A stretch of 64,000 nt of DNA from the NCBI RefSeq assembly GCF_003287285.1, contig NZ_QMIG01000004.1, forward strand, positions 62,001 to 126,000. The letters are read 5' to 3'. The notes under the pieces were generated by a model. It ran no database searches, was not told the DNA's origin, and worked only from the letters and a program-made list of their open reading frames with translations. Shown here one piece after another: positions 19,268 through 25,657 of this stretch. The DNA comes from Phytoactinopolyspora halophila (lineage in GTDB: Bacteria > Actinomycetota > Actinomycetes > Jiangellales > Jiangellaceae). Within the stretch, counting starts at the first letter, position 1. Each line of letters starts with the position of its first letter. The position numbers were made by a program, and so were the translations under genes.

Positions 19268-19699
19268 CTAGAAGATTCCCGGCAGCACCTCCTCCGATAT
19301 GTCGGCGAACATGGGCTCCTTCTCGGCCTGGTACTGATCCCAGGCCTCGGACGACCAGATCTCTACCCGGGTCATCGCGCCGACGACGGTGCATTCGCGC
19401 TCCAGCCCGGCATAGGCACGCAGCCCCGGTGGAATGGTGATCCGGCCCTGCTTGTCGGGAACCTCGTCGCTGGCTCCCGCGGCCAGCATGCGGGCGAAGT
19501 CCCGGGTGCCCTTGTGCGTGAAGGGTGCTGCCTTGAGCTGCTCGGTGAACTGAACGAACTCCGCTCGAGGCCAGACGTAGAGACAACGTTCCTGCCCCCG
19601 TGTAATCACTACGCCCTCCGCTAATTCGTCCCGGAACTTCGCGGGGAGAAAGAGCCGGCCCTTGTCGTCCAACCGGGGCGTATGGGTGCCCAGAAACAT
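19268..19699 (-). CDS. mraZ: Transcriptional regulator MraZ
   Basis: MraZ is an AbrB-like ring-forming DNA-binding protein that represses or tunes its own dcw operon. The 143 residues contain two SpoVT-AbrB-type repeats: [17 protein letters not shown] (about residue 10) and [16 protein letters not shown] (about 85). The ATG at 19699 is preceded by GGAGGTGGGGCTC and gives the canonical [15 protein letters not shown] start. It is the first gene of the operon, directly after its operator at 19744-19768. Confidence 0.95.
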
Positions 19700-19743
19700 G
19701 AGCCCCACCTCCCCGTTGGTCAGGCCACTCTTGCTCCATCGGC

Positions 19744-19768
19744 CTCCACTGTACTCCACCTTTCCCCA
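19744..19768 (-). promoter_or_regulatory. MraZ operator (three TGGRG boxes)
   Basis: On the minus strand the sequence reads TGGGG-N5-TGGAG-N5-TGGAG at 19768-19764, 19758-19754 and 19748-19744, exactly 10 bp apart. Three such direct repeats upstream of mraZ are the known MraZ binding site. They lie within and over the promoter below, as expected for autoregulation. Confidence 0.8.
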
Positions 19769-19775
19769 CTTGCAA
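19748..19775 (-). promoter_or_regulatory. Predicted dcw operon promoter upstream of mraZ
   Basis: Minus strand: TTGCAA (19775-19770), 16-bp spacer, TACAGT (19753-19748). The -10 fits the actinobacterial TANNNT form and lies 48 bp before the mraZ ATG. The spacer and -10 overlap the three MraZ boxes. Confidence 0.55.
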
Positions 19776-19980
19776 CCACAATCACACCATTAACATGTCG
19801 CGTCGCCCCACGCGTTCGTCCGCACCAGGTGACGGCTTAACTAAATCAGCAGGTCAGAGACCTTTTGCGGCGAATGGCGAGGCGTGGAGGGAGCGTGGTG
19901 GAGAGGTGGTGGACCCGTGAGCCGTGTCGGGTCGTGTCGTTGCCCGCCTCACCCCCGGTCGGCACCCGACGCGGTCCGCC

Positions 19981-20095
19981 GTGCACGCTGAACCCACGTC
20001 GACTCCCCGCCGTGCACGCTGAGCCCACGTCGACTCCCCGCCGTGCACGCTGAGCCCACGTCGACTCCCCGCCGTGCACGCTGAGCCCACGTCGA
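19981..20095. repeat. Four tandem copies of a 31-bp unit
   Basis: Copies begin at 19981, 20012, 20043 and 20074. The first three are full length with one base difference, and the fourth stops after about 22 bp. The unit starts GTGCACGCTGARCCCACGTC. There are no spacers and the unit is not a multiple of three, so it is neither CRISPR nor protein coding. It lies in the long gene-free gap between the mraZ promoter and moxR (19776-20985). Confidence 0.9.
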
Positions 20096-20432
20096 TCGAG
20101 CTGTGAAAGCGCCTTCCCGGGTGCACTCACCGTGCACGGCGCTGCGGGACACACCTTTCGTCAGCTGGTCGTCATCGGCCCGGCCGTCTGCGGAGGACCG
20201 GGCAGATGAGGGAAACCCGCGTCCCGACGGCAAGCCGCCGCAACGTCAGCGTTTCCGCACAGCGTGCGGGCACGGGCATCGGTCGGAGTTTCGTGGCAGG
20301 TCAGAGGAGTTCTTCCGGTATCTCGGCCCGACGTCCGGCGCCGTGCAGCAGCCGTCGAACGTCCGTTCTCGCCCGGCCGAGAACGGATGGCGGGATGATC
20401 GCGACCATGTAGACGGTCAAGGCCGCCGAACA

Positions 20433-20861
20433 GGGCCGGCGGAAAGGGCCGGCGGAAAGGGCCGGCGGAAAGGGCCGGCGGAAAGGGCCGGCGGAAAGGG
20501 CCGGCGGAAAGGGCCGGCGGAAAGGGCCGGCGGAAAGGGCCGGCGGAAAGGGCCGGCGGAAAGGGCCGGCGGAAAGGGCCGGCGGAAAGGGCCGGCGGAA
20601 AGGGCCGGCGGAAAGGGCCGGCGGAAAGGGCCGGCGGAAAGGGCCGGCGGAAAGGGCCGGCGGAAAGGGCCGGCGGAAAGGGCCGGCGGAAAGGGCCGGC
20701 GGAAAGGGCCGGCGGAAAGGGCCGGCGGAAAGGGCCGGCGGAAAGGGCCGGCGGAAAGGGCCGGCGGAAAGGGCCGGCGGAAAGGGCCGGCGGAAAGGGC
20801 CGGCGGAAAGGGCCGGCGGAAAGGGCCGGCGGAAAGGGCCGGCGGAAAGGGCCGGCGGAAA
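20433..20861. repeat. 33 perfect tandem copies of a 13-bp unit
   Basis: GGGCCGGCGGAAA is repeated head to tail 33 times (429 bp) with no visible mismatch. The 13-bp unit shifts frame at each copy, so every frame on both strands is open and gives artificial 13-residue repeat proteins. I regard these as noncoding. The array ends nine bases before a small open frame and about 125 bp before moxR. Confidence 0.97.
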
Positions 20862-20870
20862 GGAGAGAAT

Positions 20871-21008
20871 ATGGGCACAAGACGTTTGTCGGGAGACATC
20901 CTCCCGGGCTCGTTTCTCGGCTCGCAATTTGCCAGACTCGTGACACGAGCGTCCGCGCCTGAGATCGGCCACAAAGGAGACGGCTGTGCCCGAGCCCCTG
21001 AACAATAG
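20871..21008 (+). CDS. Possible 45-codon leader peptide overlapping moxR
   Basis: Directly after the 13-bp array, an AAAGGAGAG ribosome-binding-like sequence is followed three bases later by ATG and a 45-codon open frame starting MGTRRLSGDI. It ends at TAG 21006-21008, inside the moxR N-terminus in another frame. It resembles no protein I know. It could be a leader peptide whose translation affects moxR, or chance. Confidence 0.2.
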   Translation: MGTRRLSGDILPGSFLGSQFARLVTRASAPEIGHKGDGCARAPEQ

Positions 21009-22023
21009 TCCTTCCGACGACGTGCCCAGCGACGGCACGCTGCCGGGCGCTGCGACGAGCGGCGAGCTCAACCTGGCGGACCTCACCGAGGTCGCGGACC
21101 GGCTGCAGACTGCTATCGGCGGCGTGGTCGAAGGAAAATCTGAGGTCATCGAACTCGCACTGGCCACGCTGTTCGCCGAGGGACATCTATTGATCGAGGA
21201 CGTACCCGGCGTTGGCAAGACGCTGCTGGCCAAAGCGATGGCCCGGGCGATCGATTGCTCGGTGCGGCGGATCCAGTTCACGCCCGATCTGATGCCCAGT
21301 GACGTCACCGGCGTCTCGGTCTTCAACCAGGAGTCGCGCGAGTTCGAGTTCAAGCCCGGCGGCGTGTTCGCCAACGTCGTCGTCGGAGACGAGATCAACC
21401 GGGCCTCGCCCAAGACCCAATCGGCGTTGCTGGAGTGCATGGAGGAGCGCCAGGTCACCGTCGACGGCACGACGTACCCCCTGGATACTCCCTTCATGGT
21501 GGTCGCCACCCAGAACCCCATCGAGATGGAGGGCACCTACCCCCTCCCGGAAGCACAACGCGATCGCTTCATGATCCGCCTGTCCATGGGGTATCCGGCG
21601 ACATCATCCGAGATCGACATGATCGACACGCACGGTGCCTACACGGGGCTCGACACGCTCGAACCCGTCACCGACGCGGCCCACATGCGCAAGCTCGTCG
21701 GTCTCGTCCGGGATGTGTACGTGTCCGAGGCCGTCAAGAACTATTCCGTCGCCCTCACGGCTGCGACCCGCACATCGTCGGAGCTGCGCCTCGGCGCTTC
21801 GCCCCGGGCAACCCTGCACCTCGTCCGGGCCGCCAAGGCTTGGGCCGCCCTCGACGGCCGCGATTACGTGCTGCCCGACGATCTGCAGGCACTCGCCGTT
21901 CCGGTCCTCGCACATCGCCTGCTGCCCACGGCGGAGGCACAGATCGGGCGGCGCGACACCGCGGGCGTGGTCACCAGCATCGTCCAGCAGACCCCGGTGC
22001 CGGAAGGTCAGCCCGGAACATGA
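20986..22023 (+). CDS. MoxR-family AAA+ ATPase
   Basis: MoxR ATPases act as chaperones that mature partner proteins, often with a DUF58 protein beside them. The 345-residue product has Walker A DVPGVGKTLLAKA (about residue 73), Walker B VVVGDEINRASPKTQ (about 130), the sensor stretch MVVATQNPIEMEGTYPLPEAQRDRF kept in full, and the C-terminal lid. The GTG start at 20986 has AAAGGAGACGGCT before it. It is the first gene of a three-gene operon. Its stop overlaps the next ATG as ATGA. Confidence 0.92.
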   Translation: MPEPLNNSPSDDVPSDGTLPGAATSGELNLADLTEVADRLQTAIGGVVEGKSEVIELALATLFAEGHLLIEDVPGVGKTLLAKAMARAIDCSVRRIQFTPDLMPSDVTGVSVFNQESREFEFKPGGVFANVVVGDEINRASPKTQSALLECMEERQVTVDGTTYPLDTPFMVVATQNPIEMEGTYPLPEAQRDRFMIRLSMGYPATSSEIDMIDTHGAYTGLDTLEPVTDAAHMRKLVGLVRDVYVSEAVKNYSVALTAATRTSSELRLGASPRATLHLVRAAKAWAALDGRDYVLPDDLQALAVPVLAHRLLPTAEAQIGRRDTAGVVTSIVQQTPVPEGQPGT

Positions 22024-23339
22024 CTCGCTGGCTGTCCGGATTGACCCGTCGCGGGTGGGCGTTTCTGGCGCTCGGCTCGGGTGTCGTTGTGGCCGCAATC
22101 CTCGTCGGACAGCAGGACATCTTGCGCGCCGGCATCTTGCTTCTCATCCTTCCCCTCGCCAGCTTGCTCATCGCCGCCAGGAGCCGGGTGCACCTGAACG
22201 CCCGCCGAACCGTCGAGCCGCAACGCTTGCCGGTGGGTTCGCGCAGCACCGTCCGTCTCGAACTTGCCAACCAGACGCGAACGCCCATCGGTGTGGTGCT
22301 TGTCGAGGACACGTTGCCGTATACGCTCGGCAGCCGCCCCCGATTCGTGCTGGACAACGTATGGTCTCGATTTCGCCGCGAGGTCACGTACGAGCTCCAG
22401 CCCGCCACCCGCGGCCGCTTTTCCATCGGGCCACTTACCGTGCGGGTCACCGATCCGTTCGGCCTGATCGAGTTCCGTCGCGCCTTCAGCGACGTCGCGA
22501 CCTTGATCGCAACCCCGGTTGTGTGGCCGCTGCCCACCGTTCGGCTGACGGGCGAATGGACCGGCAGCGGGGCGACCCGGCCCCGCGCGATCGCCACCGC
22601 AGGAGAAGAGGACGCCACGGTGCGCGCTTACCGCGACGGCGACGACATGCGCCGGGTGCACTGGCGCGCCACGGCCCATCACGGCGAGCTCATGGTGCGC
22701 CGCGAGGAGCAACCATGGCAGAGCAGGGCCAGCATCTTGCTGGACACCAGGCTCAGCGGGCACGCCGGTGAGGGACCAGACTCCTCCTTCGAATGGGCGA
22801 TCAGCGCCGCCGCGTCGGTCGGCGTGCACCTGGCGGAGCGCGGCTACCTGGTGCGCCTCGTCAACGAGCAGTCCGGCGCTGCCGGCCCGGCGGCAACCGA
22901 CGGGCAGCACTCGGCACGCGAACCAGTCAGTTCCCGGGTCCAGCTCCTCGACACGCTCGCCGTCACGTCGGCCAGCCGCCACGTGTCCGTGGGGCACTGG
23001 TCGGACCTGCTCGACGGTCCCGAATCGGCCACCGGCATGCTGATCGCCGTGCTGGGCCGGTTACAGCCAGCCGAGGCACACATCGTCGCTCAGCTCCGGC
23101 ACAGTTCCACGGCAGCGCTGGCCATCCTGCTCGACGTCAACTCGTGGACGTCCGCCCCCACGCCGGAGAGCGAACGGGTCCGGGAGGCTGAAGTGGCCCA
23201 GATCTTGCGGCGCGGTGGCTGGAACGTGATCGAGGCCCGCCGTAGTGAGCCGCTGGCCACGGTGTGGGAACGCCTCAGCCTCGCCACTACGTCCAGCCCG
23301 TCGTCTCCCGGCTCGGTGAACATGGAGGGCGTCGCATGA
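22020..23339 (+). CDS. DUF58 domain membrane protein
   Basis: The 439-residue protein has two adjacent N-terminal membrane helices (about 13-30 and 36-52), a beta-rich extracytoplasmic part, and the DUF58 signature YRDGDDMRRVHWRATA (about residue 200), followed by a von Willebrand A-like C-terminal region. DUF58 proteins pair with MoxR ATPases and transglutaminase-like proteins, as here. Their biochemical role is not settled. The start overlaps the moxR stop and the stop overlaps the next ATG, so all three proteins are likely made together. Confidence 0.88.
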   Translation: MTRWLSGLTRRGWAFLALGSGVVVAAILVGQQDILRAGILLLILPLASLLIAARSRVHLNARRTVEPQRLPVGSRSTVRLELANQTRTPIGVVLVEDTLPYTLGSRPRFVLDNVWSRFRREVTYELQPATRGRFSIGPLTVRVTDPFGLIEFRRAFSDVATLIATPVVWPLPTVRLTGEWTGSGATRPRAIATAGEEDATVRAYRDGDDMRRVHWRATAHHGELMVRREEQPWQSRASILLDTRLSGHAGEGPDSSFEWAISAAASVGVHLAERGYLVRLVNEQSGAAGPAATDGQHSAREPVSSRVQLLDTLAVTSASRHVSVGHWSDLLDGPESATGMLIAVLGRLQPAEAHIVAQLRHSSTAALAILLDVNSWTSAPTPESERVREAEVAQILRRGGWNVIEARRSEPLATVWERLSLATTSSPSSPGSVNMEGVA

Positions 23340-25657
23340 GTACGGCGATCCGGCTGACTCTCGTCGGAGCGGTCGCCACCGCGCTGTCAGTGCTCCCCCT
23401 TCTCGAACTCACCGACACCGGAGCCTGGCTCATCCAGGCCAGCCTGGCACTTGCGCTGATCAGCGCCACCGGCCATCTCGCCCGTAGGCTTCGCCTGCCG
23501 GTGCTGCTCACCGTGATCATTCAGCTAGCCGTGCTGACCTGGTGGATCGGCTTAATGATCGCCGCGGACCTGGCCTGGCTGGGCTTTCTGCCCAGCACGG
23601 AGTGGCCCGCGAGATTCGTCGCCGTATTCGGGGACGGCGCCGAGCTGATCGCCACAACCGTCACCCCCATCGCCATACCCAACGCCGTGCTCGTGTATCT
23701 CGTCGGCGGTGCCGGACTCGTCGCCATCGTCGTCGATCTCACTGTCGGAAGTCTCAGGCGCGGCGTGCTGGCCGGGCTGCCACTCGGTTCCTGCTACGCG
23801 GTCACCGCATACGTCGAAGGTGGAGGTCTGGGCTGGTGGTGGTTCGTCCTGCCGGCCGCGGCATACCTCGCCGTGCTCATGGCCGAGAACCGGATCCGGG
23901 TTGCCGCGTGGGGACGCTCCACCAGCCAGCACCGCCACCCCCGCAATCCGCTCCAAGCCACCGACGCACTCGCGCGTAGCGGACGGCGGGTCGGCGCCGT
24001 GGCCATCGCCGCTGCCGTCGCCGTCCCAGCCACCGCCCCGGTGCTCAGCGACGGTTTCCTCTCCGGACATGGCAGCGGTGGTAGTGGCGGCGACGGGCGC
24101 ACCATCCGCACCGACAACCCGATCCTCGATCTACAGCGCAACCTCACGAGGCCGGACAACGTCGACGTGTTGCGCTACGAAGCCTCCGACGAAGCACCCC
24201 ACTACATTCGTACGGTCACTCTCGATTCCTTCGACGGCGAGGTCTGGCAAACGTCGGACCGCCCGGTCCCGGAGGAGCAGCGGGTGGACGAAGGGTTGCC
24301 CGAACCTCCCGGGATGGACATCGACGATCCCGACGAGATCGAGCTCCACTTCGAGATCACCGACAACTACAGCTCGCGCTGGCTGCCCCTGGTCTATCCA
24401 GCACAGCAGATCGAGATCGCGGGCGACTGGCGCTACGACGTCGCCACCCTCGACGTCGTTTCCACCGACGACGACGTGCTGGGCACCGAATACACGACGG
24501 TCAGCCTGGACGTGCCGCTCGACGCGGAGATCCTGCAGGACGCCGGCTCCCCGGATTCCGACGTGGAGGAATTGACCGAGCTTCCCGACGAGCTACCCGA
24601 GAGCGTCATCGAGCACGCCGAGGAGGTCACCTCGGACGCCGAGGGCGACTTCGCCAAGGCCGTGGCACTTCAGGAGTGGTTCAGGGGCTCGGCCTTCACC
24701 TACGACCTGGATACGCAGGCTGGGACCTCGACCTCGGCGGTGGTCGACTTCCTCGAAGACCGCCGGGGTTACTGCGAGCAGTTCGCCGGCACGATGGCGA
24801 TCATGGCTCGCTACCTGGGCATTCCGGCACGGGTCGCCGTCGGCTTCACACCGGGCACGTTCGAAGGGGACGCCACCTGGCTAGTCCGCGCCCACGATGC
24901 CCATGCCTGGCCCGAGCTGTACTTCGAGGGTGTCGGCTGGGTTCCGTGGGAGCCGACGCCGGCCGCGCGCACCGGCACGGCTCCGGAATGGACAACGGAG
25001 CCGAGGGAGGCACCGTCGACCGACGGAGAAACCCCGGAGGGCTCCGACGCGACGACGGCACCCGACGATCAGGAAACCCTGCCCGAGGAAGAAATGTTCG
25101 GTGGCGGTGGCAGCGCCACGCCCGGCGAGACCACCAGGTGGCCGTGGGCGATCGTCGCGATCGCCGGCATCGGCATCGTACTCGTTGCCGTGCCGTCCAG
25201 ACTTGCGGCGCTACGCCGGTGGCTGCGCTGGCGGCGTGCCGGCACCGACCCCGTGGCCTGCGCCTCCGCCGCTTGGTCCGACCTCAGTGAGGCTACCCGA
25301 GACGCCGGATTCGCTTGGAACACCGCGGCGACGCCCCGCACCGTCGGGCGGACGCTCGCGGCTTCGGCCGGGCTCACCGGCACCGACCGCGATCTTCTCG
25401 ATCACTTGGTGGGTGTGGTGGAACGGGCCCGCTACGCTCGCACCCACGAACAGGTGACGTTCTTGCGGGGTGACACGGCCGTGCTGTGTGCCACGCTGCG
25501 CCACTCTGCAGGACGCGGGCGACGCCTGCGGGCGTTCCTCTGGCCCACGGCGTTGCGCGACGCCGTTCGGGCGGGCGCGCAGCGGATCAGCGCCATGCTC
25601 GACCGGTGGGAGTCCGCCAGATCTCGTCGATTGAAGGACGCGCCGCTACGCCGGTGA
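23336..25657 (+). CDS. Membrane transglutaminase-like protein (DUF3488, TgpA type)
   Basis: The 773-residue protein starts with six or so membrane helices (to about residue 235, the DUF3488/TgpA_N region). An extracytoplasmic segment and a transglutaminase core follow: the catalytic Cys in RRGYCEQFAGTMA (about residue 480) and the His in HDAHAWPEL (about 520). A Thr/Glu/Asp-rich linker, one more membrane helix (about 602-620) and a cytoplasmic DUF4129-like tail end it. It probably acts on wall or surface proteins as a protease, amidase or cross-linking enzyme. The exact reaction is unknown. It is the last gene of the moxR operon. Confidence 0.87.
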   Translation: MSTAIRLTLVGAVATALSVLPLLELTDTGAWLIQASLALALISATGHLARRLRLPVLLTVIIQLAVLTWWIGLMIAADLAWLGFLPSTEWPARFVAVFGDGAELIATTVTPIAIPNAVLVYLVGGAGLVAIVVDLTVGSLRRGVLAGLPLGSCYAVTAYVEGGGLGWWWFVLPAAAYLAVLMAENRIRVAAWGRSTSQHRHPRNPLQATDALARSGRRVGAVAIAAAVAVPATAPVLSDGFLSGHGSGGSGGDGRTIRTDNPILDLQRNLTRPDNVDVLRYEASDEAPHYIRTVTLDSFDGEVWQTSDRPVPEEQRVDEGLPEPPGMDIDDPDEIELHFEITDNYSSRWLPLVYPAQQIEIAGDWRYDVATLDVVSTDDDVLGTEYTTVSLDVPLDAEILQDAGSPDSDVEELTELPDELPESVIEHAEEVTSDAEGDFAKAVALQEWFRGSAFTYDLDTQAGTSTSAVVDFLEDRRGYCEQFAGTMAIMARYLGIPARVAVGFTPGTFEGDATWLVRAHDAHAWPELYFEGVGWVPWEPTPAARTGTAPEWTTEPREAPSTDGETPEGSDATTAPDDQETLPEEEMFGGGGSATPGETTRWPWAIVAIAGIGIVLVAVPSRLAALRRWLRWRRAGTDPVACASAAWSDLSEATRDAGFAWNTAATPRTVGRTLAASAGLTGTDRDLLDHLVGVVERARYARTHEQVTFLRGDTAVLCATLRHSAGRGRRLRAFLWPTALRDAVRAGAQRISAMLDRWESARSRRLKDAPLRR

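Follow-up and report, generated by a model that had tools for sequence, protein, structure and literature searches.

A perfect 33-copy array of a 13-bp unit upstream of a moxR operon, probably a recently expanded minisatellite

The window analyzed here, a stretch of 64,000 nucleotides from a soil actinomycete, contains a tandem array so regular that it raises the questions of whether the array is real, how it arose, and whether its length could influence the genes that follow it. A letter-by-letter comparison showed that positions 20433-20861 consist of GGGCCGGCGGAAA repeated 33 times with every letter identical, exactly as claimed in the original prediction. The perfect period of 13 extends over 20432-20863 (432 bp, or 33.2 units), and Tandem Repeats Finder (TRF) called the array at 20421-20863 with 34.1 copies, a count that takes in a decayed leftmost unit, GGCCGCCGAACAG. 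The units are contiguous and arranged head-to-tail at a single intergenic locus. When up to one mismatch was allowed, the 13-bp unit was matched 33 times in the window, compared to 0.27 matches expected in shuffled sequences. In the genome from which the window was taken (a 5.04 Mb draft in 77 contigs), the 33 occurrences of GGGCCGGCGGAAA are all at the array and on a single strand.

The array lies in the intergenic region between mraZ and moxR, upstream of a moxR-DUF58-transglutaminase operon related to the cell envelope, and the Pfam-backed gene context thus bears out the predicted location. Coordinates of the features are collected in Table 1. The start codon of mraZ is likely to be the ATG near 19699, because a longer open frame that reaches 19759 crosses the MraZ-box-like repeats at 19744-19769. 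mraZ and moxR are separated by ∼1.2-1.3 kb here, as against roughly 0.15-1.07 kb in the Jiangellaceae relatives, whose spacers contain no such array. Among the genomes searched, none of the same genus, the closest relatives of the DUF58 and MoxR proteins were found in Phytoactinopolyspora, followed by Jiangella and Haloactinopolyspora. These matches place the window in the Jiangellaceae, near Phytoactinopolyspora.

Table 1. Positions in the window of the array and of the features around it.
Feature	Position	Strand	Basis
mraZ, divergent upstream neighbor	19268..19699	-	Pfam PF02381, ORF list
Decayed edge unit GGCCGCCGAACA(G), left end of array	20420..20432	+	TRF span from 20421, sequence
Array, 33 perfect copies of GGGCCGGCGGAAA	20433..20861	+	TRF, word counts, sequence
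Conserved 35-bp block GGRCTCGTTTNTNNGCNNNCAATTTGCNAGACTCG, putative promoter/operator	20906..20940	+	Alignment and pattern search, six genomes
moxR (AAA_3 ATPase), nearest gene downstream of array	20986..22023	+	Pfam PF07726, PF17863
DUF58 gene	22008..23339	+	Pfam PF01882
TgpA-like transglutaminase gene (TgpA_N/transglutaminase-core)	23264..25657	+	Pfam PF11992, PF01841

We then asked how widely the repeat is distributed. A word of two adjacent units, searched with up to three mismatches, was found in none of the 21 other Jiangellaceae genomes. Exact searches with the same word gave no match in IMG/VR, and none in the genome_contigs collection, from which the genome's own or very near records were possibly left out. 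A scan for over-represented words in the sampled part of the genome returned nothing linked to the 13-bp unit. Taken together, the perfection over 432 bp, the confinement to one genome and the decayed unit at the edge point to a recent tandem expansion. Recent expansion had already been proposed, and it is well supported by the perfect identity of the copies, their single locus and their absence from the 21 other genomes of the family.

These properties resemble those of bacterial minisatellites, or variable-number tandem repeats (VNTRs), which similarly consist of near-perfect head-to-tail units longer than 9 bp at one intergenic locus with a decayed unit at the edge; the array also fits the description of a VNTR as a single locus at which units of roughly 10-100 bp are repeated in tandem. 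By its sequence it would therefore be a further case of this known class, in which variation between strains is part of the definition, although the array stands apart by its high number, 33, of strictly perfect 13-bp units.

Other classes of repeat could be set aside. The units are contiguous and have no spacers, and we therefore rejected a CRISPR array; a dispersed palindromic (REP-like) element was rejected as the unit is confined to the array. MraZ boxes (GTGGRG, with a 10-bp spacing) resemble the array as short direct repeats located between the same two genes, but the 13-bp unit lacks GTGG and has the wrong period, and no GTGGRG box occurs in the array, so that a cluster of MraZ boxes was also rejected. 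Three GTGGRG boxes with a 10-bp spacing are present before mraZ (19744, 19754 and 19764), and we take these to be typical MraZ boxes. Period-10 repeats rich in GTGG are seen in the Jiangella spacers too, and a literature search on MraZ direct repeats found no papers. The GGGNATC repeats of Xanthomonas and Nostoc are, like the array, G-rich tandem repeats of a short unit in non-coding DNA; they have 7-bp units in runs of 2 to 26, are distributed genome-wide and form G-quadruplexes (PMC4692102), whereas the array occupies one locus and has a 13-bp unit with a competing GCCGGC hairpin. The G4Hunter score of the array was 0.92, below the usual threshold of ∼1.2, and its GGG tracts are 10 nt apart. 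In the absence of four G3 tracts with short loops we rejected a G-quadruplex repeat, though two-tetrad forms may occur.

Our preferred reading is that the array is probably a VNTR that expanded recently through slippage and is near-neutral, a minisatellite born in this lineage. One 13-bp unit would have been duplicated locally, followed by a recent and rapid expansion through replication slippage or unequal recombination. DNA folding predicted GCCGGC stem-loops with a 7-nt loop on both strands of the array, and such short GCCGGC-GGAAAGG-GCCGGC hairpins on either strand would favor slippage. A profile search for MutS_V gave no match in this genome (the same search was positive in 11 of 14 control genomes), while NucS was found. 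NucS is not known to correct slipped loops, and a loop of 13 nt may in any case escape MutS repair. The slippage mechanism, the young age and the near-neutrality of the array are inferences.

Tandem expansion is a habit of this genome and not of the locus alone, because other near-perfect arrays are present. In the 1.57 Mb sampled (31% of the genome), TRF reported nine repeats of at least 100 bp with at least 95% match, and the other near-perfect arrays included units of 51 bp (15.2 copies, 776 bp) and 57 bp (8.1 copies, 461 bp). The same cut-offs gave four repeats in 0.4 Mb of P. alkaliphila and none in a 0.4 Mb sample of a Jiangella genome assembled as one contig. No other near-perfect array in the sampled 31% reaches the copy number of the 13-bp array, which we count against the preferred reading. 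The array of the 51-bp unit (L188:5431-6206; C25:45431-46206), with 99% match, is larger than the 13-bp array.

Repeats of other kinds are also found in this genome. A 31-bp tandem repeat of 3.9 copies (19976-20095) lies between mraZ and the array, and consists of left-arm sequence from a dispersed 72-bp hairpin element. One copy of this element, an imperfect palindrome with a fold of -35 kcal/mol, is seen at 20069-20140 (GCCGTGCACGCTGAG...GGAAAGCGCTTTCC...CTCACCGTGCACGGC). It occurs at 20 or more places in the genome (including L120-L138), several of them with extra tandem copies of the left arm, and is a REP/MITE-like family. A second dispersed palindrome, TTCTCGGGCC...GGCCCGAGAA, was seen at L193:6761-6995, L153:13843-14363 and some 40 other places. 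The 57-bp tandem repeat lies beside this second palindrome; its copy number is 8.1 at one locus and 3.1 at a different one.

Alignment of the 3' flank of the array with Phytoactinopolyspora sequences revealed the conserved 35-bp block listed in Table 1, which begins 42 bp downstream of the point where the array ends; no other stretch upstream of moxR is conserved. With three mismatches allowed, a single occurrence of the block was found in this genome and in each of five genomes of the Phytoactinopolyspora group, in all six cases shortly before moxR. None of the 16 other genomes of the family contained it at this stringency, and Jiangella and Haloactinopolyspora lack the block. It is probably a lineage-specific promoter or operator of moxR, although it showed no sigma-70 consensus. 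All five relatives keep the block intact and have no array, indicating that the array is not needed for this control block, and since the array ends 42 bp upstream, the expansion took place outside the conserved control region of moxR. A 45-aa ORF (20871-21008) directly follows the array and overlaps the start of moxR out of frame; its strong Shine-Dalgarno sequence, AAAGGAG, is partly formed by the last repeat unit. No matching ORF was seen by eye in the relatives, and we do not claim it as a gene.

Could the array be a product of the assembly? The original prediction warned of this, and the concern is fair. An assembler or gap filler might have created the copy number or the perfection, the true array being shorter, longer or imperfect. 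The source is a draft in 77 contigs, a perfect array of 432 bp is longer than short reads, and assemblers are known to make errors at tandem repeats (PMC6868369). However, a contig of 264 kb passes through the site with unique flanks, the sampled stretches contain no N, and the word would be found in tandem only if an array of some length exists. Assembly errors are also expected to collapse arrays and not to expand them, as argued in PMC12817950. We therefore think an artefact improbable, though the true number of copies may be lower or higher than that in the assembly (PMC6868369). A coding array is far less credible still. No frame of the 13-bp unit contains a stop, and long ORFs pass through the array, among them ORFs on the minus strand and one of 301 aa on the plus strand (20103-21008) that contains a basic repeat, GRRKGPAERAGGK, 11 times. 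However, a stop-free unit automatically opens all six frames, so that such ORFs mean nothing on their own, and the plus-strand ORF crosses the dispersed hairpin element and enters the start of moxR. A Pfam search with two of the long ORFs through the array found no family match. The GC content at the three codon positions was 0.70/0.61/0.72 in the left flank and 0.65/0.58/0.58 in the right flank, compared to 0.69/0.46/0.85 in moxR. With codon-position GC this flat outside the array, the flanks are non-coding, and we rejected a repeat-protein gene.

A regulatory role, also raised in the original prediction, deserves more weight than either of these, though we consider it unlikely. The length of the array would then tune expression of the moxR-DUF58-transglutaminase genes by phase variation, through a protein bound in many copies, through a change in the context of the DNA preceding the promoter or, if the array is transcribed, through a long hairpin leader. 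The array is just upstream of moxR, with only 42 bp between it and the putative promoter/operator, and the RNA structure predicted for it is very stable (-292 kcal/mol, z -5.7). There is also a precedent in the promoter tandem repeats of Mycobacterium tuberculosis (dop, lpdA and cysG-efpA), for which tuning by length has been proposed and one report gives copy-number changes of 1e-2 to 1e-3 per chromosome, two or three copies at dop and a unit of 54-56 bp at cysG (PMC12817950). In the examples described there, these repeats are, like the array, actinobacterial and close upstream of an operon; they have longer units in few copies and lie in the promoter, unlike the 33 units of 13 bp found here upstream of the block (PMC12817950). 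Other observations weaken the regulatory reading. The array is upstream of the conserved block and not within it, and no relative has the array. The structure score is largely due to repetition of a self-complementary unit. No sigma-70-like promoter was found in the region, nor a recognizable one in the 13-bp unit. A weak terminator-like hairpin at 20889-20907 was the only one found, a number that shuffled sequences also reach, and an Rfam search of 19400-21300 with E values up to 1 found no known RNA family. The stronger proposal of a hypermutable switch, in which frequent changes of the unit number by slippage would set how strongly the MoxR-DUF58-transglutaminase operon is expressed, we regard as more doubtful than regulation in general. 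Being outside the conserved block, a near-neutral array that is tolerated is likelier than one whose length tunes the operon. Under the preferred reading of a recently expanded minisatellite, the array would sit just upstream of the block at 20906-20940 without interrupting it, and any effect on the moxR operon would most likely be absent or slight, exerted via the upstream DNA context.

If the array is neutral, it would be an ordinary minisatellite that could serve at best as a marker for strain typing. If its length varies, it would offer a convenient natural means of following slippage in an actinomycete that lacks MutS, as well as a test of promoter-proximal repeat switching of the M. tuberculosis type outside pathogens. 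A length switch, if true, would make the cell envelope heterogeneous among clonal cells of an actinomycete that is not a pathogen.
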